NCBI GenBank assembly: GCA_903935585.1
Contig: CAIZSE010000007.1
Coordinates: 1-64,000 of the forward strand
Direction: 5' to 3'
DNA from: an uncultured Burkholderiales bacterium
GTDB taxonomy: Bacteria > Pseudomonadota > Gammaproteobacteria > Burkholderiales > Burkholderiaceae_C
DNA: 64,000 nt
Shown here: piece by piece, positions 27,568-52,974 of the stretch
Position numbering within the stretch: the first letter of the stretch is position 1
How the letters are laid out: every line of letters begins with the position of its first letter
Made by a program: the position numbers and the translations under genes
Notes under the pieces: generated by a model
Databases searched by the model: none
What the model was told of the DNA's origin: nothing
What the model saw: the letters and a program-made list of their open reading frames with translations, nothing else

Positions 27568-27571
27568 GGCA

Positions 27572-28126
27572 TCAACCAGTGGCCTTTCCGTCAGAGGCGC
27601 TTGCATTTTCCTGCGCATCATTCGCCGACTCTTGCAAAGCGGCTTCTGCTGCCAACTCTTCCCGCAAAAAACTCAAGACCTGAAACGGCTCTTGCAGTCG
27701 CAAATCGTAGTAACAAATTTGGTTGGCCAAGGCCTGCATGGCCTCAATCACTTTCGGGGCGGGGAGTTCCATTTTTTGGTACCGTGCCCCAAGTGCAAAG
27801 GCCTCGGTCACGTACTCTTCAGGCAAGTAGGCATAAATGTCGGTTTCACCCGCACGTATTTTTTGAAATTTGGACGGCACAGGTGCATCGGGTGCGGGCT
27901 TGCCAGAACCAATGTGCAGGCCGGCCAACTCCTGCCAAGCGGCCGTTTGCTCTGCCCCGGCAATGAAGGTCTTGTCCAGATGGGCTCGGCAAAGCATGCC
28001 CATGCGCATGCGCAAACTGCGGGCGTCCCGGGAGTCGGAAGACAGCGACAACACTTTTTCAAATGCGGCCACGGCACGTTTCATCTCATCGGCGGGACTG
28101 TTGCGGTTAAAAATACTGAGCATCAA
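27572..28126 (-). CDS. Uncharacterised cytoplasmic protein, flagellar-cluster associated
   Basis: ORF immediately downstream of fliA on the same strand; no recognised domain. Confidence 0.6.
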   Translation of the reverse strand: MMLSIFNRNSPADEMKRAVAAFEKVLSLSSDSRDARSLRMRMGMLCRAHLDKTFIAGAEQTAAWQELAGLHIGSGKPAPDAPVPSKFQKIRAGETDIYAYLPEEYVTEAFALGARYQKMELPAPKVIEAMQALANQICYYDLRLQEPFQVLSFLREELAAEAALQESANDAQENASASDGKATG

Positions 28127-33350: not shown

Positions 33351-33366
33351 AGCAAGGTGCATGCCA
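33351..33366 (-). promoter_or_regulatory. sigma54 promoter candidate for flhA
   Basis: Minus strand TGGCAT-GCACC-TTGCT. Confidence 0.6.
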
Positions 33367-33415: not shown

Positions 33416-33431
33416 TGGTGCGCAAATTGCT
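33416..33431 (+). promoter_or_regulatory. sigma54 promoter candidate for fliK operon
   Basis: TGGTGC-GCAAA-TTGCT. Confidence 0.45.
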
Positions 33432-33522
33432 CAATCTGGTCATTCCACGATGGAGCGGCAACAAATAACCGCTTTTTCTGGACCGTTTGACCTGTCAGAA
33501 CCACACAGAAGATGCCAAGCCC

Positions 33523-35253
33523 ATGACCATTGCATTGATTGACAACCCCAGTCGCGCAGGCAACAGCCTTAAAACCGATTCTTTGGACCTCAAAAATGAC
33601 AAAGACTCGCGTTCGCCAAGCTCAGAATTTGGCCAAGTGATGTCTGTTGTGATGGCCCCCGACGGCGCACCAGCCGCATCGGGCACATCCAATGAAGCCA
33701 GCCTTGCCGCCGGACAGCAAGCCATTGATGGGCAAGCGCTTGCCGAAGCCACACCGGGCATGCCCGGGCTTTATGGCCCATTGGGTGGCGATTTCTTGAA
33801 AGCCTTTCATCTCGGCCCCCACCTCAATGTCATCACGCCAGAGACAGCCGTGCCGGACGAACAAAGCCTTGAAGCCTTTGCAAGGTCACAAGGCCTGGAC
33901 GAAACAGCCGTTCAGTGGCTGATGGGCACGCCACCCGGTGCGACAAACAAGCCCCTGGGACTTCTGACCGAAGCTTCGGCCCTTTTGGCAAACACGCCCC
34001 CCTTGGGCATCGCTGCCCATGGGGTCAGCAGCATTGACTCCAAGAGCGCCGACAAAGCGCAGGCAAGCATTGGCGCCCCCGGCACCGTCGGGACGGTTGG
34101 CACTGTTGGCACTGTTGGCACTGTTGGCACTGTTGGCACTGTTGGCGCTGTTGCCACTGTTGGCGCTGTTGGGACCATCAGCATCTCAGGCGCCACGGTA
34201 GCCATTGACACCTCGGGCGCCTTACGAAGCAATGTCAGCTCCGGCACCCCAGGAAGCGTTGGCACTGAGGGCATTGCGGGCACCACGCCCATCACCACAG
34301 ACACCAGCAGTTCGCCAGCATCCTCCGCAGCCACATCGGGTGATCTCGTCAAAGGTGCTGCCGCGGTCAAGCCCGACCTGCCCATCACCAACAGCGTGTT
34401 GAACAGTGCCGCACTGTGGGCCATGGCCCAACAGACAGAAAAGGCCCGCACGGCCAGTCCTGCCCCGGACGCCCTGACAGAGGCAGCGCAAGTGCAGGTC
34501 ACCCTGATGCCCCCGCCATCACCCGCCGCCATCTGGATGCAGCGCAATGCCTTGGTCATCACGTCAGCCAAAGAACCGGTGGCCACCAAGGCCGGCGTGT
34601 CTTTGAGCGAGCTGGACTTGACGCAAGCCGCCTCCCCGGAACTTCTGGAAAGCTTGGGCCAGGAACTGACTGAGGGCGGCGCCGCGGCATCATCGGGCAC
34701 CCATCACGCACCTGTGTCAGGCCATGCGGGCCATAAACCCGACATGCTGGCAGCAGCTCGCCTGGATGTCCAAAATTCAGACGCCAACCCTTCAGCACCT
34801 GATGCAGCCACCGCGCAACGCAGTGAAAACATCCAGAATCTGGCCGAAAAGATGGGCCAGGCGGTCGGGCAGCGCATACTGTCCGAAATCGAAAAAGGCC
34901 AGTGGCACCTTAAAATCTCGCTGCGACCCGCCACCCTGGGCCACATCGAAGTAGAAATGAGAATGCGCAGTGGCGAAATGGATGCGGTCTTCACGGCACA
35001 AAACGCCGTCACCCGGGAACTGCTGCAAGACGGCATGTCCAAGCTCAAAGACACCTTGAGTCAAATGGGCATGGATGTTGCTTCAGTCCTGGTAGGCGAT
35101 GGTCAAACCCAAAAACGTGGCGGAGAGTCGACACCTGGTCAAACAGGAAAATCGACCAATGCCGATGCTGACGATTCAAAAGCCACTGCGTCACAATCCG
35201 TCAGCGCACCACGCATGAAAATGGGAGAAGACGGCTGGGATGTACTGGTTTGA
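33523..35253 (+). CDS. fliK: Flagellar hook-length control protein FliK
   Basis: C-terminal Flg_hook-like LKISLRPATLGHIEVEMRMRSGEMDAVFTAQNAVTRELLQDGMSKLKDTLSQMGMDVASVLV; precedes fliL. Confidence 0.9.
   Translation: MTIALIDNPSRAGNSLKTDSLDLKNDKDSRSPSSEFGQVMSVVMAPDGAPAASGTSNEASLAAGQQAIDGQALAEATPGMPGLYGPLGGDFLKAFHLGPHLNVITPETAVPDEQSLEAFARSQGLDETAVQWLMGTPPGATNKPLGLLTEASALLANTPPLGIAAHGVSSIDSKSADKAQASIGAPGTVGTVGTVGTVGTVGTVGTVGAVATVGAVGTISISGATVAIDTSGALRSNVSSGTPGSVGTEGIAGTTPITTDTSSSPASSAATSGDLVKGAAAVKPDLPITNSVLNSAALWAMAQQTEKARTASPAPDALTEAAQVQVTLMPPPSPAAIWMQRNALVITSAKEPVATKAGVSLSELDLTQAASPELLESLGQELTEGGAAASSGTHHAPVSGHAGHKPDMLAAARLDVQNSDANPSAPDAATAQRSENIQNLAEKMGQAVGQRILSEIEKGQWHLKISLRPATLGHIEVEMRMRSGEMDAVFTAQNAVTRELLQDGMSKLKDTLSQMGMDVASVLVGDGQTQKRGGESTPGQTGKSTNADADDSKATASQSVSAPRMKMGEDGWDVLV
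34081..34179 (+). repeat. In-frame 9-bp tandem repeat (GGCACTGTT) in fliK, encoding (GTV)n
   Basis: About 11 units; five perfect consecutive copies at 34099-34143. Confidence 0.95.
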
Positions 35254-35277
35254 CACGCAAACTACCAAGGAACGAAC

Positions 35278-35856
35278 ATGGCAGACGAAGAAATTGAAGT
35301 TGAAGGCAAGAAAAAGTCACCCCTGATCAAAATTGTGGTGATCGCTTTGGTGGCCATCTTGCTGTTGGCCGGAACCGCTGTGGGCACGATGTTTGTCACG
35401 GGCTTCTTCGACAAAAAAGACACCCACGCAGCGGAGCAGGCTCTGAAAACCATGGAAGAAGGCGCTGCCGACAGCAAAGCAGCTGCCAGTGACGCCTCCC
35501 CTCAAAAGAAGGCCAAAGAATCACCCGAGCTGCAGCGCTTTGAAAACAGCTACATGGAGCTGGAAAAACCTCTGGTCTCCAACCTGACCAACACACGCAA
35601 GGTCATCCAGCTCAACCTGGCCATCATGACGCACTACGATGAGCGCGTCTTCAAGAACGCCAAGAAGCACGAGTTCGCACTGCGCTCCGTGGCCCTCGAT
35701 GTGATGCGCCAAATGACCGAGGCCGATCTGGGAAAACCTGAATTTCGAAAAGAGCTGGCCTCCAAAATTCGGGAAGAAATGAACAGCGTCTTGCAAAAAT
35801 ACGAAGATTTCGGTGGCATCGAAGAGGTGTACTTCACCAGTTTTGTGGTGCAGTGA
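35278..35856 (+). CDS. fliL: Flagellar basal body-associated protein FliL
   Basis: Single TM; YMELEKPLVSNLTNTRKVIQLNLAIMTHYDERV; position. Confidence 0.9.
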   Translation: MADEEIEVEGKKKSPLIKIVVIALVAILLLAGTAVGTMFVTGFFDKKDTHAAEQALKTMEEGAADSKAAASDASPQKKAKESPELQRFENSYMELEKPLVSNLTNTRKVIQLNLAIMTHYDERVFKNAKKHEFALRSVALDVMRQMTEADLGKPEFRKELASKIREEMNSVLQKYEDFGGIEEVYFTSFVVQ

Positions 35857-35887
35857 GCCCGCACACCCTTGAAGAAAACCCTTGACC

Positions 35888-36886
35888 ATGGCTGAAAACC
35901 AACCCTTGTTGTCCCAGGATGAACTGGCCGCCCTGTCGGCCAGCATCAGCGATGGCAGTCTTGACGTCGACACGGGCTACAACCTCGACGCCCAGATTCG
36001 CAAGCACGACCTGGCGGCAGAAGACAGCAGCCTGGGCGTGAACGTTTCTTCGCTGGACATGATCAACGAACGCTTCATTCGCATGTTCAGGCTGGGCATG
36101 CTTGAAGTTCTGCGCACCAGCCCCAGGATCAACCCCAGCCGAGCCCAGATTGTCCGTTTCAGTGACTACGTCAAAGACCTGAAAGCACCTCTCTCGGTCA
36201 ACATCATTCGCATGGCACCTTTGCGTGGCTACGCCATGGTGGTGATTGAACCCACCGTGGTGTTCAGCTCGCTCGACAGCTTTTTTGGTGGCTTTGGCCG
36301 AGGTGTGGGCCAACTCCCTCCTGGCCGTCTGTTCACACCGACCGAAACTCGCATCATCAAGATCATTTTGCAGGTCTTCTTCAGGTCATTCAAGGAAGCC
36401 TGGTCTCCAGTTACAGCCATTGATTTCGAGCATGTGAGCTCCGAGATCAACCCCCAATTTGCCCAAATTGCAGACGAAAACGACCTCGTCGTACTGAGTC
36501 GTTTTGAGTCCGACGCCGCCACACAAGGCGGGGGGTTCATCGACATGGTGATACCTTATGTGGCCCTCAAACCGGTCCGGGATTTGCTGCGCAGCCGTGT
36601 TCAAACCGGTGACGGCAACGAAGAGTCCGACAAGGTTTGGCACGGCCAATTGGCCGATGCTGTGCGCGACGCAGAACTCGAAATCCAGATCCTTCTGGGC
36701 AAGCTCAATTTGTCACTTCAGCAGCTCCAAACCATGCAGCCCGGTGACGTTTTGCCATTCAAAAAATCCGAATCGGCCAGAGCCCTTATCGAGGACATGC
36801 CCGTTTACGATGTCGAGATAGGCGCCTTGGGTAGCCAAGTGGCGGTGAAAATCGTCCAGGCCATCAGCCCAACCGTGCAAGCTTGA
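35888..36886 (+). CDS. fliM: Flagellar motor switch protein FliM
   Basis: LLSQDELAALSASISDG; MINERFIRMFRLGMLEVLRTSPRI. Confidence 0.95.
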   Translation: MAENQPLLSQDELAALSASISDGSLDVDTGYNLDAQIRKHDLAAEDSSLGVNVSSLDMINERFIRMFRLGMLEVLRTSPRINPSRAQIVRFSDYVKDLKAPLSVNIIRMAPLRGYAMVVIEPTVVFSSLDSFFGGFGRGVGQLPPGRLFTPTETRIIKIILQVFFRSFKEAWSPVTAIDFEHVSSEINPQFAQIADENDLVVLSRFESDAATQGGGFIDMVIPYVALKPVRDLLRSRVQTGDGNEESDKVWHGQLADAVRDAELEIQILLGKLNLSLQQLQTMQPGDVLPFKKSESARALIEDMPVYDVEIGALGSQVAVKIVQAISPTVQA

Positions 36887-36895
36887 CCCCCCCCC
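36887..36895 (+). repeat. C9 homopolymer in fliM-fliN intergenic spacer
   Basis: Read directly after the fliM stop codon. Confidence 0.9.
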
Positions 36896-36911
36896 ACACA
36901 GAGGAACGCTT

Positions 36912-37223
36912 ATGAGCGATACGACCACCACCGCCGAACCCACCCCCGAAACCGGGGAAAAAGGCCAAATCCATTCGGATGTTTTACAAAACATCCCCGT
37001 CACCTTGTCGATTGAGGTTGGCCGCGCCGTGATCAAGATCCGTGACCTGATGCGCCTGACCCAAGGCAGCGTGGTCGAGTTGGACCGCATTGCCGGAGAG
37101 CCTCTGAATTTGCTGGTCAACAACACCGTGGTGGCACAAGGCGAAGTGGTCTTGGTCAACGACCGTTACGGCATTCGGCTGACCCGCGTAGTGCCCGCCT
37201 CGGAACGGCTTGACAACCTTTAA
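36912..37223 (+). CDS. fliN: Flagellar motor switch protein FliN
   Basis: NIPVTLSIEVGRAVIKIRDLMRLTQGSVVELDRIAGEPLNLLVNNTVVAQGEVVLVNDRYGIRLT. Confidence 0.96.
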   Translation: MSDTTTTAEPTPETGEKGQIHSDVLQNIPVTLSIEVGRAVIKIRDLMRLTQGSVVELDRIAGEPLNLLVNNTVVAQGEVVLVNDRYGIRLTRVVPASERLDNL

Positions 37224-37240
37224 TCCAGAATGGCCAGGCT

Positions 37241-37537
37241 ATGAACTCGGTATGGACTTTGGGAGACTGGCTGCAATACCTGTTCAGTTTCATTTTTGTG
37301 ATCGGTTTGTTGCTGGCTCTTTTGTGGACCCTGCGCAAATTGCAGGGCGGCTCTTCGCTGCTGGGCAAAAATACCCACCGCATGCAAACACTTGAAACAC
37401 TGTCGGTCGGTGCCCGCCAAAAGATCATGCTGATCCGGGTCGATGACCGGGAAATCCTGATTGGTGTCTCCGCCCAACAGATGAGCGTGCTGGCCCCCTG
37501 GCCTGACGCTGCATCACCAGAAAAAACAACACCATGA
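37241..37537 (+). CDS. fliO: Flagellar biosynthetic protein FliO
   Basis: TM plus ETLSVGARQKIMLIRVDDREILIGVSAQQMSVLA; position. Confidence 0.9.
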   Translation: MNSVWTLGDWLQYLFSFIFVIGLLLALLWTLRKLQGGSSLLGKNTHRMQTLETLSVGARQKIMLIRVDDREILIGVSAQQMSVLAPWPDAASPEKTTP

Positions 37538-38286
37538 AGCGCTCCGTCACCATTGGCCTGATCCTCACCCTGCTGATCGGGCTGCTGCCCGTTTTGGCGC
37601 AGGCCGCCCCGGACATGCCGGCCATCACCAGCAGCAACACCGGCAAAGGCACGCAATACAGCATCACGCTGCAATTGCTGGCCCTGATGACGACCCTGTC
37701 GGTGCTGCCATCCCTGCTGCTCATGATGACTGCTTTTGTGCGCATCGTGATCGTCATGTCGATCTTGCGGCAAGCTTTGGGCACGGGTCAGACCCCCCCC
37801 AACATGGTGATCGTCGGGCTGTCGCTGTTCCTCACGCTTTTTGTGATGTCACCCGTCCTGAACGACGTTTACCAAAACGCCCTGCTGCCCTACATGAACC
37901 AGGGCATGGCGTTTGACAAAGCACTGGCGGCCGCAGAAAAGCCGATCCGGGCTTTCATGCTGCTGCAAACCCGTGAAGACGACATCGCCATGTTCATGGA
38001 AATCGCCCGCAACAAAGCTGTGACCAGCTCTCAAGATGTGCCGTTCATGACCCTGGTGCCCGCGTTTTTGACTTCTGAATTGAAAAGCGCTTTCACGATC
38101 GGCTTTTTGATTTACATCCCCTTTGTCGTGATCGACCTGATCGTGGCCAGCGTCTTGATGTCCATGGGCATGATGATGTTGTCACCCATGATGATTTCGA
38201 TGCCTTTCAAGCTGATGCTTTTTGTGCTGGTTGACGGCTGGAGCCTGATCATGGGTTCTTTGGCCGGCAGCTTTGCCATGCCTTAA
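37534..38286 (+). CDS. fliP: Flagellar biosynthetic protein FliP
   Basis: FVRIVIVMSILRQALGTGQTPPNMVIVGLSLFLTLFVMSPV. Confidence 0.97.
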   Translation: MKRSVTIGLILTLLIGLLPVLAQAAPDMPAITSSNTGKGTQYSITLQLLALMTTLSVLPSLLLMMTAFVRIVIVMSILRQALGTGQTPPNMVIVGLSLFLTLFVMSPVLNDVYQNALLPYMNQGMAFDKALAAAEKPIRAFMLLQTREDDIAMFMEIARNKAVTSSQDVPFMTLVPAFLTSELKSAFTIGFLIYIPFVVIDLIVASVLMSMGMMMLSPMMISMPFKLMLFVLVDGWSLIMGSLAGSFAMP

Positions 38287-38297
38287 AGGAGTACATC

Positions 38298-38567
38298 ATG
38301 GACACCGCCATGGTCATTGATTTAAGCCGTCAGGCTTTGTGGACCGCCATGCTGGTCTGCGCGCCTTTGCTGCTGGTGGCCTTGGCTGTGGGCCTGTTCA
38401 TCGGCATCATTCAGGCCGCCACCTCGATCAACGAATCGACGCTCAGCTTCATTCCAAAGTTGATCGTGATGGGGCTGGCCTTGTTGGCTTTTGGCAGCTG
38501 GCAACTGGTCACCCTGATCGACTTCACGCGCAGCATTTTTCAACGCATCCCGACCTTGTTCACCTGA
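38298..38567 (+). CDS. fliQ: Flagellar biosynthetic protein FliQ
   Basis: VGLFIGIIQAATSINESTLSFIPKLIVMGLALL. Confidence 0.95.
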   Translation: MDTAMVIDLSRQALWTAMLVCAPLLLVALAVGLFIGIIQAATSINESTLSFIPKLIVMGLALLAFGSWQLVTLIDFTRSIFQRIPTLFT

Positions 38568-38585
38568 ACACGGCCCCTGCCCGCC

Positions 38586-39362
38586 ATGAACTTCCTCGCA
38601 GCCGACATCATCGAAAGGTTTTATACCTTTTTGTGGCCCATGCTGCGCATTTCGGCACTGATGGTCGCAGCCCCCATTTTTTCGCTCAGCGCCTTCAACT
38701 TGCGCCTGCGGATTTTGATGGCCCTTGTCCTGGCATGGCTGGTTTACCCCTTGCACCAGTGGCCTGTGCTCGACCCCTCTACCGCACCTGGTCTGGTCGA
38801 GGTCTTCAACCAGATCATGATCGGGGCCGTCATGGGCCTGATCCTTCAAGTCGTAGTCGCGGCCGTCGTCGTCGGAGGGCAAAGCATTGCCGCAGCCATG
38901 GGCTTGTCCATGGCCAACATGCTGGATCCCAACATGGGCAGCGTGCCGGTCATTTCGCAATTGCTGATCATCATGTCGACCCTGATTTTTGTCGGCTTTG
39001 GGGGGCATGCCATCTTGCTGGGCTTGATCTCTGAATCCTTCAACTCACTGCCGATCGGCACCTCCATCCTCAACCAAAACGTTTATGGGCGCGTTCTGCA
39101 GTGGAGCTCCATGGTGTTTTTGGGAGCGGTTTTGATGGCCTTGCCTGTCATGGTGTCGCTGCTTTTCATCAACGTCGGCCTGGGCATCGTCACACGGGCT
39201 GCGCCCAGCCTGAACATTTTTGCAGTCGGATTTCCCGCCATGATCATCGCGGGCTTCCTGATTTTGATCATCTCGATGGGCAGCATCGGGACCCGCATTG
39301 AATGGCTCTGGGTTCAGGGCTTCACCGTGGTGCGCGACGTGCTGGGGGTGCCCAATGTCTGA
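38586..39362 (+). CDS. fliR: Flagellar biosynthetic protein FliR
   Basis: Multi-TM; ESFNSLPIG; GIVTRAAPSLNIFAVGFPAMI. Confidence 0.95.
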   Translation: MNFLAADIIERFYTFLWPMLRISALMVAAPIFSLSAFNLRLRILMALVLAWLVYPLHQWPVLDPSTAPGLVEVFNQIMIGAVMGLILQVVVAAVVVGGQSIAAAMGLSMANMLDPNMGSVPVISQLLIIMSTLIFVGFGGHAILLGLISESFNSLPIGTSILNQNVYGRVLQWSSMVFLGAVLMALPVMVSLLFINVGLGIVTRAAPSLNIFAVGFPAMIIAGFLILIISMGSIGTRIEWLWVQGFTVVRDVLGVPNV

Positions 39363-40518
39363 AGCCTCAGGTCAGGACAAAACCGAAGAGCCAACGGCCC
39401 GAAAACTGGGCAAGGCGCGCGAAGACGGGCAAGTGGCACGGTCGTCAGAATTGCCCGCTGCCGTCGTTGTCATTGGCGCGCTCTTGATGCTGTTGATGAC
39501 GGGCGGATGGCTGATCACACGCATGGCCAACGTGTTTGCCAATGGCTTTGTCTTTGACCGCACCACCATCAACAAGCCCCTGCTGCTGCCCGCGCTCTTT
39601 GGCGACCAGTTGATGGCGTCTTTCATCACGGTGATGCCCATCATGGTCTTTACCGTGGTTGCGGCCATCGTGGCCTCAGGCATGACCGGGGGTTATCTTT
39701 TCTCAATGCAGGCCGTTGCCCCCAAAGGCTCCAAACTCAGCTTGATCAATGGCCTGGGCCGCATATTTGGAACCCATGCGCTCGTTGAACTGGGCAAAGC
39801 CCTGCTCAAATTCAGCCTGGTCGCGCTCGTCTTGTGGTGGTCGCTGATGTCCAACATGGACGGGCTGATCCGCATCGGTCAGATGGGGCTGGAGCCCGCC
39901 CTCGCCGCTGCCGGCGTCATGATCATGCAATCGGCTTTGTGGGTGGCACTGAGTCTGGCGGTCATTGCGATGATCGATGTGCCTTACCAAAAATACTCGT
40001 TCAACAAGCGCATGCGCATGACCAAACAAGAGGTCAAAGACGAGTACAAACAAATGGAAGGCAGTCCGGAGGTCAAAGCCCAGATCCGCAGGCGCCAGCG
40101 CGAAATGGCCAACTCGCGCATGATGCAACGGGTCAAGGATGCCGACGTGGTGATCACCAACCCCGAGCACTTTGCCGTGGCACTTGAATACGACCCCACC
40201 GGAGACGGCGCCCCCATCATGGTCGCCAAAGGCTCGGACCACATGGCGGCACTCATTCGAGAAGAAGCCAAGGCCCATGGCGTTCATTTGTTTGAAGCCG
40301 CACCGCTGGCCCGCGCCATTTACTTCACCACTGAAGTCGAGCAACAAGTGCCGGAAGACCTCTACCATGCCGTTGCCCAGGTCATTGCCTACGTCTTTAG
40401 CCTGGAGGCGGCATCCCCCATGAATCCGCCCCAAGCCAAACCCAAAGTCAAAGTGCCTTCAAGCATGCTTTTCAATCCCGACGGCAGTCGGCTTGAGAAA
40501 GCTGGAGCCAGCGCATGA
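39355..40518 (+). CDS. flhB: Flagellar biosynthetic protein FlhB (cleavage motif NPEH)
   Basis: DKTEEPTARKLGKAREDGQVARSSEL; MTKQEVKDEYKQMEGSPEVKAQIRRRQREMA; VVITNPEHFAVAL. Confidence 0.95.
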   Translation: MSEASGQDKTEEPTARKLGKAREDGQVARSSELPAAVVVIGALLMLLMTGGWLITRMANVFANGFVFDRTTINKPLLLPALFGDQLMASFITVMPIMVFTVVAAIVASGMTGGYLFSMQAVAPKGSKLSLINGLGRIFGTHALVELGKALLKFSLVALVLWWSLMSNMDGLIRIGQMGLEPALAAAGVMIMQSALWVALSLAVIAMIDVPYQKYSFNKRMRMTKQEVKDEYKQMEGSPEVKAQIRRRQREMANSRMMQRVKDADVVITNPEHFAVALEYDPTGDGAPIMVAKGSDHMAALIREEAKAHGVHLFEAAPLARAIYFTTEVEQQVPEDLYHAVAQVIAYVFSLEAASPMNPPQAKPKVKVPSSMLFNPDGSRLEKAGASA

Positions 40519-41855
40519 ACACCCAGATCCACCCCGAGACCACCGCCTTGAACAATTTTGTCTTTCGAGCCGCTGATCGCATGCGGATTGACGGCTGCGC
40601 CAATGCCGTGGCGCGTGAGGGCCTGAGTCTGGCGCTTTACTGCCCCTTTGAGGCCTTGCTGGACCACTATGTCAACTTGCTCCTGGCCAGCTTGCGCCAG
40701 CAAGCGCCTGAACACCGAATCGAGGTGTACTTTCCAGCCAGCACCGAATCCTTGCTGGACCGTTTCAACGAAGTGCTGGCCACCCAGTCGCTCCACCAGG
40801 CCGTCAAAACAGCATCGAGTGTCAACCAGGCCCAAATCTGGGTCGTGCACGATGCCCAAATGCTGCCCGAGACAGAAATCCAGTTGTTGGCACGCTTGAT
40901 CCAAAATTTTCCGGGCGCCAATATCCGGGCCATTTTGTTGATGTCTGGCAGCGCCAACGCCAACAAGTCGCCCTTGTCGGCTTTCGGCCGAAAAATTTTG
41001 CGCTGGGACATTGAAGCACCCACCGAAGAACAAGCGCAAGCTGCGCTCGACGTCGCCCGCCATGAAGGCCGCTTCAATGCGGTGCAGCAATTGGTCCAGC
41101 GCATCCAGCGCAAACAGTTTCCCGAGCTGGACATGCCCTTCAGCCCGGCCATTGCGTCTGTTGCTTTGACCAGTCTCGAACCGGCCCAAACACCAAGGTC
41201 CAAACTCAAAAGCAAACTGCAGGCATTTCAGCAGCACGGCGTGTCGGCCTTGCAGGCATTTCGGCAAACGGGCCAGAGCGCCAACAAAACCGCCTTCTGG
41301 ATTCGGCAAAACACCAAGTTGGCTTTGGGCATTGCCTTGGCCTTGTTCGTGTCCACGCTGACGATGCTCTGGATTCAGCCCGAAGCGTTTGGCATCAAGC
41401 CTGCCAAACCCATTGCGGCCGCACCCCTCAAGAGTCCGCAACTGGCCTCTCAAACGCCGGCAACGGCACCTGTTGTGATCGCAGACGAGCCCCCTCGTCC
41501 TGTGGTGGCGCCCATGGCCAAGACGCCAACAGAGTCAGCCATCGAGGCGCCTGAAGCCACGCTGGATGCACAGGCCTGGATCAAAAAACTCGATGCTGGC
41601 AGCTTCTTGCTCCAGCACGGCACCTCCAGCAGCTACGAAAAAGTACTGGACATTCAGCGCAAATTCCCTGGATTGAAACAAGCCCAAATTGTTGCGGCCT
41701 ACCGCCCCGGCGAAAAGCTGGCGCATTTCGTGATCGTGTCTGGCCCCTTCGGTGAAGTCGGCCAGGGTTACGAAGCCTCCAAACGTCCCGGTATTCCGAA
41801 AAGCTGGGTTCGTCCAACCCGAAGCTTGCAAGATCAACTCAAGAGCCCGACCTGA
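40515..41855 (+). CDS. DamX/GspA-like protein: degenerate AAA-like N-domain, TM, C-terminal SPOR-like domain
   Basis: TM TKLALGIALALFVSTLTMLWI; C-terminus SFLLQHGTSSSYEKVLDIQRKF...HFVIVSGPFGEVGQGYEASKRPGIPKSWVRPTRSLQDQL; no GxxxxGK[ST]; ATGA overlap with flhB. Confidence 0.65.
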   Translation: MNTQIHPETTALNNFVFRAADRMRIDGCANAVAREGLSLALYCPFEALLDHYVNLLLASLRQQAPEHRIEVYFPASTESLLDRFNEVLATQSLHQAVKTASSVNQAQIWVVHDAQMLPETEIQLLARLIQNFPGANIRAILLMSGSANANKSPLSAFGRKILRWDIEAPTEEQAQAALDVARHEGRFNAVQQLVQRIQRKQFPELDMPFSPAIASVALTSLEPAQTPRSKLKSKLQAFQQHGVSALQAFRQTGQSANKTAFWIRQNTKLALGIALALFVSTLTMLWIQPEAFGIKPAKPIAAAPLKSPQLASQTPATAPVVIADEPPRPVVAPMAKTPTESAIEAPEATLDAQAWIKKLDAGSFLLQHGTSSSYEKVLDIQRKFPGLKQAQIVAAYRPGEKLAHFVIVSGPFGEVGQGYEASKRPGIPKSWVRPTRSLQDQLKSPT

Positions 41856-41872
41856 GCGATGGAAGCCATCTG

Positions 41873-42319
41873 ATGAAAAAGAACACCCTTATTCGCAACG
41901 ACTCACCCCACGCCGTCAAGATGAACGAAGGCTCCAATGTGGCCGAGCGAAGAGTCAAAAAAGTCGCTGCCGTTAAAGAAGACGAGCCCAAACCCAGCGT
42001 CAGTCTGCTGGTCAAGCCGACACCAGAGATCACACCGGTCCCCGTCAAAGCGCCCAAACGTTCGGCCGTCAAACCTCGCCCGAGTGTGCGACTGAAGACA
42101 GCACCACCAGCACCGCCTGCACCGGCCCCCCTGCCCATCCAGGCCGTCAAACCCCTGGCAGCAATCACCGCAGCGCCCATCTTGGACGAAGCAGCCCTGT
42201 GGGAACAAGACAACCCTGTGAAAAGCCGTTTGGCACAGCTCAGGACACGCAACGCACTTTTGGATGAACAACTCCAAAGACTGAAGACCCCCTTCCATGC
42301 CCGAGGAAAAAAATCATGA
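41873..42319 (+). CDS. Uncharacterised Lys/Pro-rich basic protein
   Basis: ORF in the flhB operon; ATGA overlap with the next gene. Confidence 0.55.
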   Translation: MKKNTLIRNDSPHAVKMNEGSNVAERRVKKVAAVKEDEPKPSVSLLVKPTPEITPVPVKAPKRSAVKPRPSVRLKTAPPAPPAPAPLPIQAVKPLAAITAAPILDEAALWEQDNPVKSRLAQLRTRNALLDEQLQRLKTPFHARGKKS

Positions 42320-43332
42320 GCGAGAAAACTTTCACGCCCGCCGCCGAGCCCCAGGACCCTGCGCACACCGAGGACAGCCAGACGCCGTCGTCGATACCCG
42401 CACCTGCTCCGGAGAACCTGGCGCCACACCACGACGCGCACCAGGCACCAACCCCAGCTCCAGCCCCTGCCGCTGCCCCAGCCCCCGAAAAGCCCCTGCA
42501 CATGGGCATGTCGGTTGACCAACGTGCGTACCAGCAATACCAATCGCTGGCCCAAGTGGTCCTGGACTCGGCTGACCTGGCCACCAAATCGGCAGAAGCC
42601 GCAGCCAACGCCAGCAGCACGCTCAGGCAAACCACCGCTGATTTCAAGGACCTCACGGAATCAGGCCATAAAAAAGCCCGCCTTTTGTTGGTCATCACGG
42701 GGGGCGTGCTGGTCATCAGCCTGATCTTTTTCCTCATCATGGGTGTTCGCCTGGTCAGCCGCATCAACCAGTTGGATGCCATGCTGATGGCGGTTGGCAA
42801 ACGCGTGGTAGAGCTCAACTCGGGCATGGAATCCCTTGAAGGCGTCAACCAAAGTGTGAAAGAGCTGGCCTCGCAGCAAGTGGCCTTGACCAAATCGCAG
42901 GGCCAGATTGAGGGCCGGATCGATGCCTCTCTCAAACAGTCTGAAAGCCTGGTTCAAAAAGTGCCGAGCGAGACCGCCAAACAAGTGGCCGCCAGCAGCG
43001 ACTCGGTGATCCGGCAAGTTCAGGGCATCAACGCCAAATTGCAAACGCAGGCCAATGCCGTTCAAGCCATGGGCAACGAGGTGAAATCCCTGAAAACAGC
43101 TGTCGGCAATGTCGACGGTCTCAAGCGCGATGTCGAAGCCTTGGTCACGCTGCAAAAAGAACGCTATCTGGAAACAGTGCAAAAGAACACCGCCACCGCA
43201 TCACGCGAGCGGGCGGTGCAGTTTCCACGCTATGCAGCCCCTAAACCCGGCGAGACCAGTAGCGCTTCACCTGCCCCCGCAACATCGGCCACAAACCCTG
43301 CCAGCGCGGCTTTGCCGCCGACCAAACCCTGA
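42316..43332 (+). CDS. Uncharacterised single-TM coiled-coil protein
   Basis: TM LLLVITGGVLVISLIFFLIMGV; predicted coiled coil; Pro/Ala-rich N- and C-termini. Confidence 0.65.
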   Translation: MSEKTFTPAAEPQDPAHTEDSQTPSSIPAPAPENLAPHHDAHQAPTPAPAPAAAPAPEKPLHMGMSVDQRAYQQYQSLAQVVLDSADLATKSAEAAANASSTLRQTTADFKDLTESGHKKARLLLVITGGVLVISLIFFLIMGVRLVSRINQLDAMLMAVGKRVVELNSGMESLEGVNQSVKELASQQVALTKSQGQIEGRIDASLKQSESLVQKVPSETAKQVAASSDSVIRQVQGINAKLQTQANAVQAMGNEVKSLKTAVGNVDGLKRDVEALVTLQKERYLETVQKNTATASRERAVQFPRYAAPKPGETSSASPAPATSATNPASAALPPTKP

Positions 43333-43457: not shown

Positions 43458-43868
43458 TCACTCAATGCAAACGGCGATGTAGGTGAGAACAAAAACACCA
43501 TTCGGCGGGATCTTTCGCCAATACCCCATCTCGTTGACGGTGAAGATTTTTTGACCCGTCATTTTGGCGCCTGAGAAACTGGTCAACTGCCCCATGCGGT
43601 GCATCTTGTAATTGCAGTCGTACTCGTTCAGGTAACGCCTGGACAAGACCCCATCGGCGTCAGCGACCTTCAGGTCTTGCATTTCCCAAACCCTGCGTAC
43701 GGTTTCTTCTTTTTCAATCGAGTTTCGATTGACGTAAAGCGTCACTTCAGCCGTTTCACCGATACGGGTCCAGGCCCACGCAGAGACTGGCGAGAGGCCG
43801 CCAAGCAGCAGCAAAAAGCCCAGGCTTCCCAGCAAAAATGGTCGCATTGAAAACACCCGAAAAGTCAT
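43458..43868 (-). CDS. Secreted/periplasmic protein resembling surface-adhesin E family
   Basis: Signal peptide MRPFLLGSLGFLLLLGGLSPVSAWA; WTRIGETAEVTLYVNRNSI...VWEMQDLK...EYDCNYKMHR. Confidence 0.55.
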   Translation of the reverse strand: MTFRVFSMRPFLLGSLGFLLLLGGLSPVSAWAWTRIGETAEVTLYVNRNSIEKEETVRRVWEMQDLKVADADGVLSRRYLNEYDCNYKMHRMGQLTSFSGAKMTGQKIFTVNEMGYWRKIPPNGVFVLTYIAVCIE

Positions 43869-43876
43869 TTTTTCTC

Positions 43877-44803
43877 TCAAAAATATGTGCCGGCCAGAGT
43901 CACCGCCCGACCTCCCGTGCCCAATTTGAAGCGGGAAATACCTGGCAAATCGTGGGTATTGATACCGCCCAAATCGAGAACCTCCACGCCGAGCTCTTGC
44001 AGATACACCATCGCTTTCCACATCAACGCATTGTGTGCATTGAGCTGGCGGCCCTCGTCGTCAGCCCAGCCCATATGGTAACTGGCGACACGCCCATGAA
44101 TCAAGAACAGCATCGCTGCCACCGTGTTCTTGCCCAGCTCGGCATACGCCACGGCAAAAGACTGGCGAGGATCCGTGTTGGCGTCGATGTAAGCCTGCAC
44201 AAAATCGGTGGGCAAGCCATGGAATTTTTTGGCTTCACGCTGGTCCATTTCCTTGCCCAGCAACCACTGACAACGCTTCAAGCTGGGTTGCACCTGAACC
44301 CTCAGTTTTTCGTTCAACAAGACCTTGTTCAAGCGGTTGCGCCATTTGCCCTCCAGCCCCTCCTTCAGGCTCGTCAAGGGGCTGGTCAAATCCAGCAGCA
44401 CGGTGGAATAACCGGTCATCACCCGAGACATGCCCTTGATTTCGACAGCGTCCACCTCAGGCAGCGCCCGGTCAGGAGAAAACAGCAACACCTTCAGGCG
44501 AGGCAAAGGGATGGACTGACGCAACAGCCGGTAAACCAGGGCGCGTTGAGCGGCGGTTGTATCGGGGTGCCAAACAGGCCCCCGCGTGCAAGAGGCCAGC
44601 GAAACATAGCCCACAATGCGCCTGCACATGAACTGTGCCAGCGCCACAAGTCGGCCGCCATCCCAGACCATGGCACGGTGCATGACCACATCCAATGAGG
44701 TCAAGGCATCGCCATATGTCCAGGCCTGCTGCAATGCGCCGTGTTGCAAGGCATGGAATTCCTCCCACTGCGCCTGCGGTAAATGGTCCCAACTGACTTT
44801 CAT
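43877..44803 (-). CDS. FemAB/GNAT-fold acyl- or aminoacyltransferase-like protein
   Basis: QQAWTYGDALTSLDV; EGKWRNRLNKVLLNEKLRVQ; SYHMGWADDEGRQLNAHNALMWKAMVYLQELGVEVLDLGGIN. Confidence 0.65.
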   Translation of the reverse strand: MKVSWDHLPQAQWEEFHALQHGALQQAWTYGDALTSLDVVMHRAMVWDGGRLVALAQFMCRRIVGYVSLASCTRGPVWHPDTTAAQRALVYRLLRQSIPLPRLKVLLFSPDRALPEVDAVEIKGMSRVMTGYSTVLLDLTSPLTSLKEGLEGKWRNRLNKVLLNEKLRVQVQPSLKRCQWLLGKEMDQREAKKFHGLPTDFVQAYIDANTDPRQSFAVAYAELGKNTVAAMLFLIHGRVASYHMGWADDEGRQLNAHNALMWKAMVYLQELGVEVLDLGGINTHDLPGISRFKLGTGGRAVTLAGTYF

Positions 44804-47581: not shown

Positions 47582-49042
47582 TTAACCCACCCCGCGCAAA
47601 TCGTATTTGTTGATCTTTTCGATCAAGGTGGTTCTTTGCAGCTGCAGCAGCTTGGCTGTTTGAGAAACATTGCCCTGCGTCCGGGCCAGCGCCTGTTCGA
47701 TCAGGCTGCGCTCGACTTCCACCAAGTGCTGCTTGAGCGACATCCCCTCCGGCGGCAAAGTCTGAATACCCTGGGCCAGCAAGATCGCTTGCTCCACCTC
47801 GTTGATCTCATCGTTGGAGGCAGACAAAGGTGCGGGGTTGAATGACTTTACGGGGAAGCTGAAAGAGCCCCCTGCCCCTCCCAACAAATGCGCCATCGGG
47901 TCATCATCGCCCACAAAAGGTGAACCGCCCTCCCGGTCCAAGCCACCCAAGGGGCTCGTCAAACCGGTGTCGGGGCTGGGCAGGACCACTTGCGACACCG
48001 CCACAGTAGAAGCACTCAAGGCAGGCGGGAAAGTCACCGTGGTGGACATGCCGCGCTGCCCCATCCATTCGGCCTGCAAGGCGGCCAAACCGAGCGGCAT
48101 CATGCAGGCAGGTATGGTTTGAACCTGCAGCAATTGCGAGGGGTACAGGGTGGAAAATCGGTCCACCAGGTTGGACAACTCGCGCACATTGCCAGGCCAG
48201 GCGTAGGCCTGCATGAGCTGCAGCATGTCGTCCGAAAAAACGATGGCCTTGGTCTTGGGCAAGGCGTGTTTGCCCGCGTAAAAATTCAGCAAAGGGGCGA
48301 TGTCTGCGGAGCGCTCGCGCAAAGGCGTGGTGACCACCGGCAAAACATTGATGCGGTAATACAAGTCTTCCCGAAAGCGGCCAGCCTCGACCTCGGCCTC
48401 GAGCTTTTTGTGGGTGGCAGCCACCACACGCACATCGATGGGCACCTCCCTGGAGGCGCCCACCGGCAAAATGCAGCGCTCTTGCAACACACGCAACAAC
48501 TTGACCTGCATGTCCATCGGCAAGTCGCCAATTTCATCCAGAAACAATGTGCCGCTGTGGGCCAACTCAAAGCGGCCCAAGCGATCGGCCACCGCTCCGG
48601 TAAAACTGCCCTTTCGGTGCCCGAAAAGCTCGCTTTCAATCAGATCGCGGGGGATGGCCCCGCAGTTGATCGGCACAAAAGGCCCCGATGCACGCGGCCC
48701 TTGCATGTGCAGGGCTTGCGCGACCAACTCCTTGCCGGTTCCGCTTTCTCCGGAGATGAGCGCGGTCGAAGACGATGCCGACAAGGTTTTGATCAACTCG
48801 CGCAGAAACAAAGTCGCTTGACTCTCGCCAATGATGTGGGGGTGGGAGTTGGATTTCATCCGCAAAAGACCCAGGGTTTGTCGATCACCGGCACGCTCAA
48901 AATCAACATGTGCTGACAAGACGCTCAGTTCGAAGTTGCTATTAATATGACTTCTGATGGTTATAAATGATTTTCTGCCCTCTTGGCAAGGAAAAATGAT
49001 AACTTTAGGGAGCAAATTGACAAAATTCTCAATACTGTTCAT
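47582..49042 (-). CDS. sigma54-interacting activator, FleQ/FlrA-like, without a recognisable N-terminal receiver domain
   Basis: AAA+ ISGESGTGKE, GSFTGA, FLDEIGDLP; Fis-type HTH NVSQTAKLLQLQRTTLIEKINKYDL; start could instead be 48859. Confidence 0.88.
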   Translation of the reverse strand: MNSIENFVNLLPKVIIFPCQEGRKSFITIRSHINSNFELSVLSAHVDFERAGDRQTLGLLRMKSNSHPHIIGESQATLFLRELIKTLSASSSTALISGESGTGKELVAQALHMQGPRASGPFVPINCGAIPRDLIESELFGHRKGSFTGAVADRLGRFELAHSGTLFLDEIGDLPMDMQVKLLRVLQERCILPVGASREVPIDVRVVAATHKKLEAEVEAGRFREDLYYRINVLPVVTTPLRERSADIAPLLNFYAGKHALPKTKAIVFSDDMLQLMQAYAWPGNVRELSNLVDRFSTLYPSQLLQVQTIPACMMPLGLAALQAEWMGQRGMSTTVTFPPALSASTVAVSQVVLPSPDTGLTSPLGGLDREGGSPFVGDDDPMAHLLGGAGGSFSFPVKSFNPAPLSASNDEINEVEQAILLAQGIQTLPPEGMSLKQHLVEVERSLIEQALARTQGNVSQTAKLLQLQRTTLIEKINKYDLRGVG

Positions 49043-49101
49043 TTTTGGCGTCTATCCACCGCCCGCACCCCCGGTTCTCATGCGTTACGCGGCCAGTTCG
49101 C

Positions 49102-49128
49102 TCAAGACTTTCAAGCTCCTGCCGATAC
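49102..49128 (+). promoter_or_regulatory. sigma28 (FliA) promoter candidate for flgP-like operon
   Basis: TCAAGACT-N11-GCCGATAC. Confidence 0.65.
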
Positions 49129-49197
49129 ACCATTCAAGACAAATCAAGTTGGCCAGCCCATTTCAGGGCTGGGCAGGCTTACCTCTGGAGTTTAAAG

Positions 49198-49692
49198 ATG
49201 ACCTTCAACCGATCATTGGCCGCAAGCTTGCTCGCCCTGACAGCCCTGGCTGGGTGCGAAAGCATTCCCTTGAATGGGCAGTCCCATGGCAGCCAAACCG
49301 GGCCTGCAGCGCCCGTGTCCATGATCACGCCCATGGTCGAAAAGCGCGAAACACTGGTGGCCACGGGTTACGCCGTCATCAGTGTCCAAAACCACAAAAA
49401 TTCAGCACAGCAACGCCTGCTCGCCATCCGGGCCTCCAAACTCGATGCCTACCGCTCACTCACCGAACAAGTTTATGGCCAGCAACTGGACGCCACCACC
49501 ACCGTGGCCGACATGACCGTCATGAGCGACACCTTCAGGGCCAAGGTCGAGGGTGTGATTTATGGCGCCGTGCTGGTCAGCATTGCCCCTGTGGGTGAAG
49601 ACACCTACGAAACAACCCTGTCGCTGGACCAGCATGTGGTCAGGGACCTGCGCAGCTTGTACCTGAGCCAATTGACCGCGCGTCGGCGCTGA
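49198..49692 (+). CDS. FlgP-like flagellar lipoprotein (LPP20 family-like)
   Basis: Lipobox LTALAGC; ATGYAVISVQNHKNSAQQRLLAIRASKLDAYRSLTEQVYGQQLDATTTVADM. Confidence 0.75.
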   Translation: MTFNRSLAASLLALTALAGCESIPLNGQSHGSQTGPAAPVSMITPMVEKRETLVATGYAVISVQNHKNSAQQRLLAIRASKLDAYRSLTEQVYGQQLDATTTVADMTVMSDTFRAKVEGVIYGAVLVSIAPVGEDTYETTLSLDQHVVRDLRSLYLSQLTARRR

Positions 49693-49696
49693 GACC

Positions 49697-50974
49697 ATGT
49701 TCAAGCAAACGGCATCACGGGTCTGCGGACCGAAAAGCCCGGTCGCTGAATTCAAGCGCTTGGGCCAAGCTGCGGCCTTGGCGCTTGTAGCGATGGCCTG
49801 TGCAGGCGTGCAGTCACAAACCGCCCGCCCGGCCAACCTGGGTGATGCCGTTGTGGCAACGGCCAGCGCTTCGTCCAATGCCAAAGCTGCGCGCACACAA
49901 ACGCAAACGCAAACGCAAATGCAAACGCAAAAACAGCATGAAGCTCAGCTGAGTGCGATCCGACAAGCCATTTTGCAAGCCACCATCGACCGCCCGACCC
50001 GGGTGCTCAGCAGCGCCTGGATTGACGACAAAGGCGCACTGCACGAAAGCGCCCATTTCCAGTCCGAGGCGCAGGTTCGCGGTGTCCGCATCCTGTCTTA
50101 CCTCGAAGACGAAAAAGATGCCGTACCCCAGGTCAGCGCCGAAGTCTTGCCCTGGGGCTGGCGCGCCGCACAGTCCAAGGCCGCCTGCACGGCACCGCCT
50201 CGCCCCTGGCGCTTGCCCCTGGTGCTGCAGACCCGCATAGAAAATGGCTTCACAGGCACACAAAATTTTGCCAGCCAATCCTTGCTGAACATTGCCAGCC
50301 AGGCGTGGACTGAAAAAATGCAAGCCTCCCAACGCTGGCGCGCCCAGTTGAAAGAGTCACCCCCTGAAAATGCTTACATGCGGGCCTTGACCGGTCCCAG
50401 CGAAAGCCCGACAGGCTGGACTGCCGAACTGGTGCTCAAGCCACACGCCCCGGCTGTGGCCATGGGCTTTCAAAAAGCTTGGCACGCCCTGAGCAAAGAC
50501 GAAGCCGACTGGCGCTGGACATTGAGCTTCACACTGGGCGAACGCCACTCGCCCACAGGCCCGATCGAGCCCCATTGGCAAATGGAGCACGTCATATCGA
50601 TTGATCCCCAGGCTTTGGGCCAACACCCCAGCGCCTGGATCCACCCCTTGAAAGAACAACTGCAAAGTCAAATTCAAGTGTGGGTCAAACAACTGGACAA
50701 GCGCTCCGAATGCGCGCCCATCCAGTTTCATGTGCGTCGCAATGGCCCGGACGGCCTGCAACTGCAAGCGGGCTTTGAAAGCGGCTTGCGCGCGGGTGAC
50801 CGTGTCTTGCTGATAAACCCCAGCCACGTGCCCAGCCAAATGCTGGAGCCAGGGGCCACCCAGCACCTGGCCTTGGCCCAAGTGGTTAAAGTGGGAACGA
50901 ACCGCACCGAACTCCAACAACTGGCCGGTCCGGCATTGGCCGCCCAGGGGCACTGGATGGCTTTGCCACTTTGA
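49697..50974 (+). CDS. FlgT-like flagellar assembly protein
   Basis: Directly after flgP-like; layout of N-domain, Cys-containing middle domain and C-terminal SH3-like segment (GLRAGDRVLLINPSHVPSQ...ALAQVVKVGTNRTELQQL). Confidence 0.55.
   Translation: MFKQTASRVCGPKSPVAEFKRLGQAAALALVAMACAGVQSQTARPANLGDAVVATASASSNAKAARTQTQTQTQMQTQKQHEAQLSAIRQAILQATIDRPTRVLSSAWIDDKGALHESAHFQSEAQVRGVRILSYLEDEKDAVPQVSAEVLPWGWRAAQSKAACTAPPRPWRLPLVLQTRIENGFTGTQNFASQSLLNIASQAWTEKMQASQRWRAQLKESPPENAYMRALTGPSESPTGWTAELVLKPHAPAVAMGFQKAWHALSKDEADWRWTLSFTLGERHSPTGPIEPHWQMEHVISIDPQALGQHPSAWIHPLKEQLQSQIQVWVKQLDKRSECAPIQFHVRRNGPDGLQLQAGFESGLRAGDRVLLINPSHVPSQMLEPGATQHLALAQVVKVGTNRTELQQLAGPALAAQGHWMALPL
49895..49935 (+). repeat. 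6-bp simple repeat (CAAACG)n in flgT-like gene encoding QTQTQ tract
   Basis: cacaaacgcaaacgcaaacgcaaatgcaaacgcaa. Confidence 0.85.
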
Positions 50975-51007
50975 CCCAGCGTGATGAGCACACTTATGCA
51001 AAAACGA

Positions 51008-51565
51008 CACATGACCGCCCTGCTTGATGCTGCACACAGCGGCGCTTTTTCTATTCGCCATCGCCTGTTGCTCGGCTCAGGGCTCGTTTTTCTGGCGATT
51101 GCCGTGTTGAATGTTTCGCCAGCCAAAGCGGCAGAAACCTCGGCAGCCGCGGCATCAGCGCTCAAAGTATTGGCGATGCCACTGAGTGCAACCAACAACC
51201 CGAACCCTGCAGCGGCCGCATCCCATGCCCAAAGCGGGTCGACAGCCAACGCACACAGCATCACGGTTCAAAAAGGCGAAAGCATCGATGCCGTGATCCG
51301 GCGTGGTTTGCCTGGCTTGGCTTTGAGGGATGACTTCATGCGCCAGGCTTTGGCCAGGGCCAACCCCAGGATTTTCCCCAAAGGCCAGACCTATCCCGTC
51401 AAGCCCGGCACAGTCCTGACGCTGCCTTCACACGAAGATTTGCGGCAACACATCTTGTCCCAATACCCCGCCACAGTCGCCTTGTTTCAAGCATCGCCCG
51501 CAGAAAATGTGGGCAAAGACCAGGCATCGGGCCCGGACAAACGCCGCTGGGTGCGTTTTCCTTAA
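51008..51565 (+). CDS. Secreted protein with LysM/FimV-N-terminal-like segment
   Basis: Signal-like N-terminus; HSITVQKGESIDAVIRRGLPGLALRDDFMRQALARANPRIFPKGQTYPVKPGTVLTLPS; start approximate. Confidence 0.55.
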   Translation, partial: HMTALLDAAHSGAFSIRHRLLLGSGLVFLAIAVLNVSPAKAAETSAAAASALKVLAMPLSATNNPNPAAAASHAQSGSTANAHSITVQKGESIDAVIRRGLPGLALRDDFMRQALARANPRIFPKGQTYPVKPGTVLTLPSHEDLRQHILSQYPATVALFQASPAENVGKDQASGPDKRRWVRFP

Positions 51566-51586: not shown

Positions 51587-52696
51587 ATGATCACGGGGGC
51601 TGAAACAGCCCACCTGACACCCAAAACGCCCACCATTTACCTGGAGGGCAAATTGCCGCTGGTCATCACCAAGACCGCAGCGGATCTGGGCTTGCGTGAT
51701 GGTCAAGTGATTCAATCCACCGTCGAGTACAAGCTCGATGCGCTGCGTTTGAACCTGCAAGGCTCTCAGCAAGGGCAGTTCATTGACCTGCCCAAAGACC
51801 TACCCGCGGGTCTGCGACTGGCCTCAGGCGACACCGCCCTGTTCAGGGTTCAAGTGATGGCCAATGGCAGCATCGTGCTGCGCCCATTGCAAGCCGCACC
51901 GGCACCAGCCAGTCCAACGCCAGCTGAGGCTGCGGCACTGCCGGGGCGAACAGCGCAACTGGGCTTTCGGCCCCCGGACATGCAGGCCTTGGCACAATTG
52001 CTCAGGCCCGGTGTTCTGGACAGCATGCTGCAAGGCCTGCCCGCATCTGCACCCGAATTGGGGGCCCTTCAGCAATGGCTTCGGCTGCGGCCCGGCATGG
52101 CCCAACTCACCCCCGAAAAGCTGCAGCAAGCCATTCACAACAGCGGGTTCATGACCGAAAGCCTGCTGTCGCAGGGACTGGGGGCCGGCCTGGTGGACCT
52201 GAAAAGCATCCTGCGCCAACTGCTGCGCAGCGGTTCCGCCACCGACAAAGACAGCCTGATCGGCGACAGCCTGGACGACATCGAGTCGCACCAAATGACG
52301 GCGCAAGAAACCATCAACGGACGCGAATGGGTGTTTTCAATGATGCTGCCTTTTGCCGATGCCGAGCCGGTGAACCTGCGCTTTTCTCGCAGCAGGCGTC
52401 AACCCGGACAAGAAAAACCGCCTTTTGTCATCCACCTGCACACCCGCAACCGTGAACTGGGCGAAGTCTGGCTGCAAACCCGCATCAGCGACCAGACCGA
52501 CGTCGACATGGTGATGTGGGCACTGCGCGAAGACGTTGTGTTGCGGGCCAAAGCCCTGGCCAACAATCTCGAACAAGAGCTCGACAGCGCAGGGCTGAAC
52601 ATGACCCGGTTGCAGATCATCCACGGAGCGGGCCCGCAAGAGCCCATGCCCTATGCGCCCCCAGAGATGGGCAGTTTGCTGGACGTGCAGACGTGA
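51587..52696 (+). CDS. Second FliK-like (hook-length control family) protein
   Basis: C-terminus RNRELGEVWLQTRISDQTDVDMVMWALREDVVLRAKALANNLEQELDSAGLNMTRLQIIHG resembles Flg_hook; coupled to flhX. Confidence 0.6.
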   Translation: MITGAETAHLTPKTPTIYLEGKLPLVITKTAADLGLRDGQVIQSTVEYKLDALRLNLQGSQQGQFIDLPKDLPAGLRLASGDTALFRVQVMANGSIVLRPLQAAPAPASPTPAEAAALPGRTAQLGFRPPDMQALAQLLRPGVLDSMLQGLPASAPELGALQQWLRLRPGMAQLTPEKLQQAIHNSGFMTESLLSQGLGAGLVDLKSILRQLLRSGSATDKDSLIGDSLDDIESHQMTAQETINGREWVFSMMLPFADAEPVNLRFSRSRRQPGQEKPPFVIHLHTRNRELGEVWLQTRISDQTDVDMVMWALREDVVLRAKALANNLEQELDSAGLNMTRLQIIHGAGPQEPMPYAPPEMGSLLDVQT

Positions 52697-52974
52697 AAGC
52701 CCCTCTCAAAGAAGCCATCGCGCTGGAATACGGCGCCCGCAAAACACCCGTCATCAGTGCCAAGGGGCAGGACGATCTGGCTCAAAAAATCATTGAAGAA
52801 GCCCAGCGCCATGGCGTTTATGTGGCCCAAGACCCGCAATTGCTGGCCTTGCTCAGCCGGGTAGACCTGGACGCTGAAATTCCGGCCGAGATGTACACGG
52901 CGGTGGCGGTCATTTTGTCGTGGGTTTACTGGCTCAAGGGCATGCGCCCTGGCGATGAGAAAAATCCCGGGTAA
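52693..52974 (+). CDS. FlhB C-terminal-domain homologue (FlhX/YlqH-like)
   Basis: EAIALEYGARKTPVISAKGQDDLAQKIIEEAQRHGVYVAQDPQLLALLSRVDLDAEIPAEMYTAVAVILSWVYWLKG; GTGA overlap. Confidence 0.85.
   Translation: MKAPLKEAIALEYGARKTPVISAKGQDDLAQKIIEEAQRHGVYVAQDPQLLALLSRVDLDAEIPAEMYTAVAVILSWVYWLKGMRPGDEKNPG

Follow-up and report, generated by a model that had tools for sequence, protein, structure and literature searches.

A three-gene set after flhB as a candidate link between the flagellar export gate and the cell wall in one Burkholderiales flagellar lineage

The gene run that continues beyond flhB

The window, by which we mean the whole stretch of 64,000 nucleotides analysed here, carries a flagellar cluster in which an unbroken series of forward-strand genes extends past the export genes into three undescribed genes. 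The upstream part of this series in the open reading frame map is presumably fliK-fliL-fliM-fliN-fliO-fliP-fliQ-fliR (33487-39362), labels that rest on gene order and established knowledge without a family scan, and the same fliK-fliR order is found in those loci of relatives that bear the three genes. It is followed by flhB, encoding the export-gate switch protein (39355-40518, with the likely ATG at 39355), which matches TIGR00328 at 375.7 bits against a cut-off of 349. Directly after flhB and on the same strand lie gene A (40515-41855, 446 aa), which overlaps the end of flhB through an ATGA, gene B (41873-42319, 148 aa), which starts 17 bp after the stop of gene A, and gene C (42316-43332, 338 aa), which overlaps gene B through a second ATGA at 42316-42319. 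The first-pass annotation had placed the set and its overlaps correctly and had given the one gap as 18 bp, which measures 17 bp. The co-directional genes flhB-A-B-C form an operon-like structure. Comparison with three relatives places all three genes under purifying selection, with dN/dS of 0.08-0.17 for gene A, 0.26-0.31 for gene B and 0.09-0.17 for gene C beside a comparison value of 0.06-0.08 for flhB, so that by this measure A, B and C behave as real genes. The window is Limnohabitans-like (Burkholderiales) and stems from a freshwater bacterium; its gene A shares 95% identity with that of Limnohabitans sp. 2KL-17. A sigma-54-like -24/-12 site at 33416-33430 on the forward strand (two mismatches, GG and GC kept) is a candidate promoter of the run from fliK through A-B-C, and a divergent site on the reverse strand (33352-33366, one mismatch) faces flhA; sites of this kind are no more frequent across the window than chance predicts, and both stay candidates only.

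The surrounding cluster, which also keeps flhF and a fleN-like gene, shows several further features. Adhesin_E-domain and FemAB/GNAT-type genes lie between gene C and motA (43458-44803, reverse strand) and are present in part of the genus only. At 47582-51565, a sigma-54 activator of the Fis type diverges from an LPP20-type (FlgP-like) lipoprotein gene and two unnamed genes, the last of which has a weak FimV/LysM-like match; this arrangement points to a motor under sigma-54 control that has additional periplasmic parts. Next to it, 51587-52953 holds a second gene with a FliK-type hook-length domain and then a short open reading frame resembling the FlhB C-domain (34% over FlhB 268-356).

Architecture of the three predicted proteins

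Scans of A, B and C against Pfam and NCBIfam returned nothing informative, in line with the first-pass view that no named family covers the trio, and their description draws on structure prediction, topology and profiles of relatives. Structure prediction, which that annotation had proposed as a check, gave an AAA+ fold in gene A and a membrane coiled coil in gene C. The product of gene A is laid out as a pseudo-AAA+ domain (about residues 15-200), a linker, a transmembrane helix (about 268-288), a second linker and a DamX-type SPOR domain (about 346-441). Its AlphaFold2 model, built from 35 natural relatives, has a mean pLDDT of 80.6, with residues 11-200 mostly in blocks of 79-96, and in a Foldseek search of the PDB about 180 residues of the N-domain resemble AAA+ clamp loaders, DnaA and ORC (E 4e-6, probability 1.00), which identifies the fold as AAA+. 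The Walker A P-loop GxxxxGK[ST] is absent from all 35 of the 35 family members, and the window's protein carries ALYCPFEALLDHY at that position; the degenerate, P-loop-less AAA-like domain that had been read from the letters is therefore confirmed at the level of the family. Charges flanking the transmembrane helix (K+R 3.3 versus 1.2) follow the positive-inside rule and would place the N-domain inside and the SPOR domain outside. The C-terminal elements of the model run E364-371, H374-383, E391-395, E404-412, H415-422 and E431-434 in pLDDT blocks of 92-97, which is the RNP-like beta-alpha-beta-beta-alpha-beta order of the SPOR fold. The gene A family profile matches the DamX SPOR structure 2LFV (E 2.1e-5), which is also the best PDB match of a profile restricted to flhB-linked members (E 6.3e-5). 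Matches to PF05036 occur in 11 of 35 relatives at E up to 10, the best of them (3.6e-6, over the cut-off) in the paralogue L102, while the window's own protein has no Pfam match to PF05036 even at E 10; its SPOR assignment is thus one made by sequence at the level of the family profile, resting on its relatives. The single transmembrane helix and the DamX-like C-terminus had both been anticipated.

Gene B encodes a protein of unfolded composition (P/K/A/E/S/T 55%, net charge +15, no transmembrane helix) which, when compared with its homologues, consists of two conserved ends around a variable middle. The N-terminal end bears the motif PHxVxMxEGSxxA, found in family f18 too, and the C-terminal end a conserved short helix, WEQDxPVxxRLxxLRxRNxLLxEQLQRL. 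Homologues range from 128 to 389 aa and from +22 to -51 in net charge. The earlier description of a basic Pro/Lys-rich protein consequently holds for the window's protein and its subclade, to which the basic character is limited, and fails for the family, whose conserved parts are the two ends.

Gene C encodes, as proposed from the letters, a single-TM coiled-coil protein. The AlphaFold2 model and topology prediction give a disordered N-terminal tail, a helix at 67-118, a transmembrane segment at about 121-143 and a coiled coil to about residue 300, after which (from 301) only a helix and a disordered tail are modelled. Its charge flanks (K+R 3.1 versus 1.8) make the topology less clear than that of gene A. 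The most conserved stretch by region is VQ[FY]PR at 301-305, which alignments of other families still show as [VI]x[FY]P and which is followed by a variable tail. Weak matches of gene C in Pfam, NCBIfam and the PDB were dismissed as coiled-coil noise.

Distribution of the set and the FlhB lineage

The coupling to flhB, which the first-pass annotation had made dependent on conserved linkage, is borne out by a synteny survey. Loci across the genus repeat the order flhB-A-B-C, the genes overlapping or lying a short gap apart, and A-type matches were found in 65 and C matches in 53 of its 72 genomes; single-sequence queries for A and C found no matches in 48 other genera. Profile searches reached further, locating full-length A adjoining flhB in families f18 and f19, where the order is flhB-A-B-C with a more divergent B, and strong C matches in f18, f19 and one genome of f13, in which C follows flhB. 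Within the genus, C and flhB of this type occur together in 50 genomes and are both missing from 17, with C alone in three and flhB alone in two (p=1.3e-11); the five mismatches are draft genomes, in most of which the contig that holds C or flhB is short or broken. The linkage is kept far beyond chance. Gene C was not found in flagella-less genomes of the genus, and wherever surroundings are readable B and C stand in flagellar loci only. Five loci read flhB-B-C without an adjoining A, and those genomes carry a copy termed A2 elsewhere.

The set is also no standard flagellar gene set, as had been suspected, being absent from canonical flhB-flhA-flhF clusters of other Burkholderiales, sister genera included; most of the other Burkholderiales loci inspected show flhB and then flhA-flhF-fleN-fliA, with no trio. 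We rejected the view that it is a common Burkholderiales trait, since strong C scores across the order are limited to the genus, f13, f18 and f19. A class-wide sample for C gave coiled-coil noise only, and phylum-wide A matches outside the genus covered only the linker and SPOR part. FlhB itself follows the same division. Outside the genus, FlhB proteins of module-bearing loci (loci with the three-gene set) are 51-60% identical to the window's, as against at most 43% for other FlhB proteins in 150 Burkholderiales genomes and 35-37% for those of sister genera in the same family. In a tree of 38 FlhB sequences all 21 module-bearing rows fall on one side of a branch with 100/100 support and the association needs a single label change; the non-module rows were hand-picked, so the tree shows separation, not absence of exceptions. 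Of the two flhB genes in one genome (G175), it is the one in the module-bearing clade that C adjoins. A-B-C accordingly belongs to one distinct flagellar-cluster lineage, whose spread over families f1, f13, f18 and f19 fits either a transfer of the cluster as a whole or an ancient presence followed by numerous losses.

The history of gene A is less tightly bound to the flagellum. That it is a flagella-only gene was rejected, because paralogues A2 and A3 lie outside flagellar loci and occur even where a genome has no flhB (A2 in G020, for example). On the A tree, which has a midpoint root only, A2 and A3 branch next to the flhB-linked copies L088 and L098, which fits a possible origin of the family at the flagellar locus and a later escape to other loci. 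The family has non-flagellar members, so A alone is no proof of a flagellar role. At two loci of the same genus (L070 and L073, in G001 and G031), A2 neighbours motA/motB and flgH-flgI-flgJ that belong to a divergent second flagellar set. The A3 copies (L078-L085 and L102-L104) stand at loci that are not flagellar, one example being downstream of a DAO-domain gene, and occur also where flhB is missing; they may be a separate envelope SPOR protein.

Proposed role and comparison with known systems

How the flagellar rod passes wall meshes far narrower than itself, and how the export gate gets placed at open wall, are only partly understood. With B and C at its side, a flagellum-linked protein that combines SPOR with a dead AAA+ domain offers a concrete candidate for such a link from gate to wall. 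Because one member joins a dead ATPase-like domain to a wall-binding domain, it is probable that the trio couples the apparatus that builds the flagellum to the cell wall. That A, B and C are a flagellum-dedicated inner-membrane accessory complex, with denuded peptidoglycan as the docking site for the export apparatus or basal body, we put at even chances: beside the observed architecture, selection, lineage association and operon-like structure, we infer the physical complex, the wall binding and the step served. Since the architecture of gene A is that of GspA minus the nucleotide loop, we read A as an anchor or adaptor, C as a strut and B as a two-ended tether. Gene A would be the wall anchor, its AAA+-fold domain without the ATP-binding loop serving as a cytosolic docking surface and its periplasmic SPOR domain, a predicted binder, gripping glycan strands that have lost their stem peptides at places of ongoing wall cleavage, be it the division site, the new pole or the crossing of the flagellar rod. 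Gene C would act as an inner-membrane coiled-coil strut reaching into the periplasm with a short putative binding motif, and gene B as an unfolded cytosolic tether whose two ends each offer a putative binding site. As a unit, the three would keep the export gate or early basal body close to peptidoglycan that has been opened locally, and it is at such spots that flagella would be built or retained. The FlgJ of the window (62785-63261, 158 aa) matches only the N-terminal, rod-binding half of the model and misses the wall hydrolase domain, so that the wall would have to be cut by a different enzyme, an arrangement into which a SPOR protein with affinity for cut wall would fit well.

Proteins with a SPOR domain are known to gather at denuded septal wall, and DamX is itself septal. 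From SPOR binding to denuded peptidoglycan the first-pass annotation derived a possible link between the septal or polar wall and the export apparatus or flagellar position. In this reading, which the presence of flhF and a fleN-like gene in the cluster favours, the trio would be a polar or septal landmark that recruits FlhF and FlhB to the new pole through SPOR; we regard this as unlikely, as canonical FlhF-bearing clusters of other Burkholderiales work without the trio. Equally improbable in our estimate is that C, with A, forms a periplasmic scaffold of the running motor, a coiled-coil ring or set of spokes that holds the stators while SPOR fixes the ring to the wall, doing the job that FlgY/FlbB/MotE or PflA/B do elsewhere. 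Like E-ring proteins such as FlbB, C has a transmembrane helix and a long coiled coil (PMC13023049), FlgY is said to be missing from beta- and gamma-proteobacteria, and the LPP20-type lipoprotein gene near motA/motB makes extra periplasmic parts plausible; yet C is without the MgtE_N/ARM domain that defines the E-ring family, the trio adjoins flhB and not motAB, and such a scaffold offers no obvious place for B. The non-flagellar paralogues of gene A might finally point to passengers, a general envelope-maintenance SPOR protein and two partners riding the flagellar operon, but this is very unlikely given that B and C are confined to flagellar loci where surroundings can be read, that one change on the FlhB tree explains the association, and that flagella-less genomes of the genus are devoid of C.

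The docking complex that we favor is assembled from known parts, a DamX-type SPOR domain, an AAA+ fold and a coiled coil, in a flagellar-lineage-specific trio that is not named in Pfam or NCBIfam. In an open-access literature search the SPOR domain and flhB were never joined and wider queries turned up nothing of relevance, though literature beyond it may differ. DamX, the E. coli cell-division protein, resembles the product of gene A in having a single transmembrane helix and a SPOR domain at the C-terminus, whereas gene A lies behind flhB among flagellar genes, its N-domain is clearly of AAA+ fold, and B and C partner it. To our knowledge, neither E. coli nor Salmonella has A-B-C. The hat-shaped structure linked to the flagellar type III secretion system (fT3SS) by Kaplan (PMC9380563) is present in both and was for this reason rejected as the product of the trio. 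FipA, a DUF2802 pole determinant, is a small coiled protein with a single TM whose gene accompanies flhF/flhG in clusters for polar flagella (PMC11620751); we rejected identity with it, as DUF2802 is found neither in A, B and C nor in the product of 26896-27621. This latter reverse-strand gene, for a one-TM protein of 241 aa, stands directly after flhA-flhF-fleN-fliA, the position of FipA, and in family f19 (L135) a gene whose product is 28% identical to it directly follows gene C. FlgY, FlbB and MotE resemble C as flagellum-associated proteins that combine a coiled coil with a membrane helix or signal peptide, and C was rejected as a member of this E-ring group, having no MgtE_N (PF03448) match at E up to 0.1.

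The closest parallel lies in secretion. In the GspA/GspB system, a protein with AAA+, transmembrane and peptidoglycan-binding parts and its one-TM partner fix the secretion channel in the wall and help the secretin through it (PMC9239104). GspA/ExeA, like gene A, combines a cytosolic AAA+ domain, a transmembrane helix and a periplasmic wall-binding domain, has a one-TM partner in GspB and adjoins a secretion machine (PMC9239104). Gene A is not a member of that family: the P-loop is lost, SPOR replaces PF01471, Pfam finds neither PF01471 nor a peptidase-like domain, and the context is flagellar; the trio differs further in that the partner C is a coiled coil and the link is to the flagellar export gate, not a secretin. 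By analogy, gene A may work like GspA all the same. The fullest form of our proposal, advanced tentatively and at somewhat less than even chances, is that the trio is an undescribed flagellar subcomplex in which a pseudo-AAA+/SPOR anchor, a disordered tether and a coiled-coil strut connect the export gate to denuded peptidoglycan, a counterpart of GspA/GspB marking a flagellar lineage over several Burkholderiales families and unlike the usual one of that order. If true, flagella would be a further case in which wall-docking adaptors of the GspA/GspB type have arisen.
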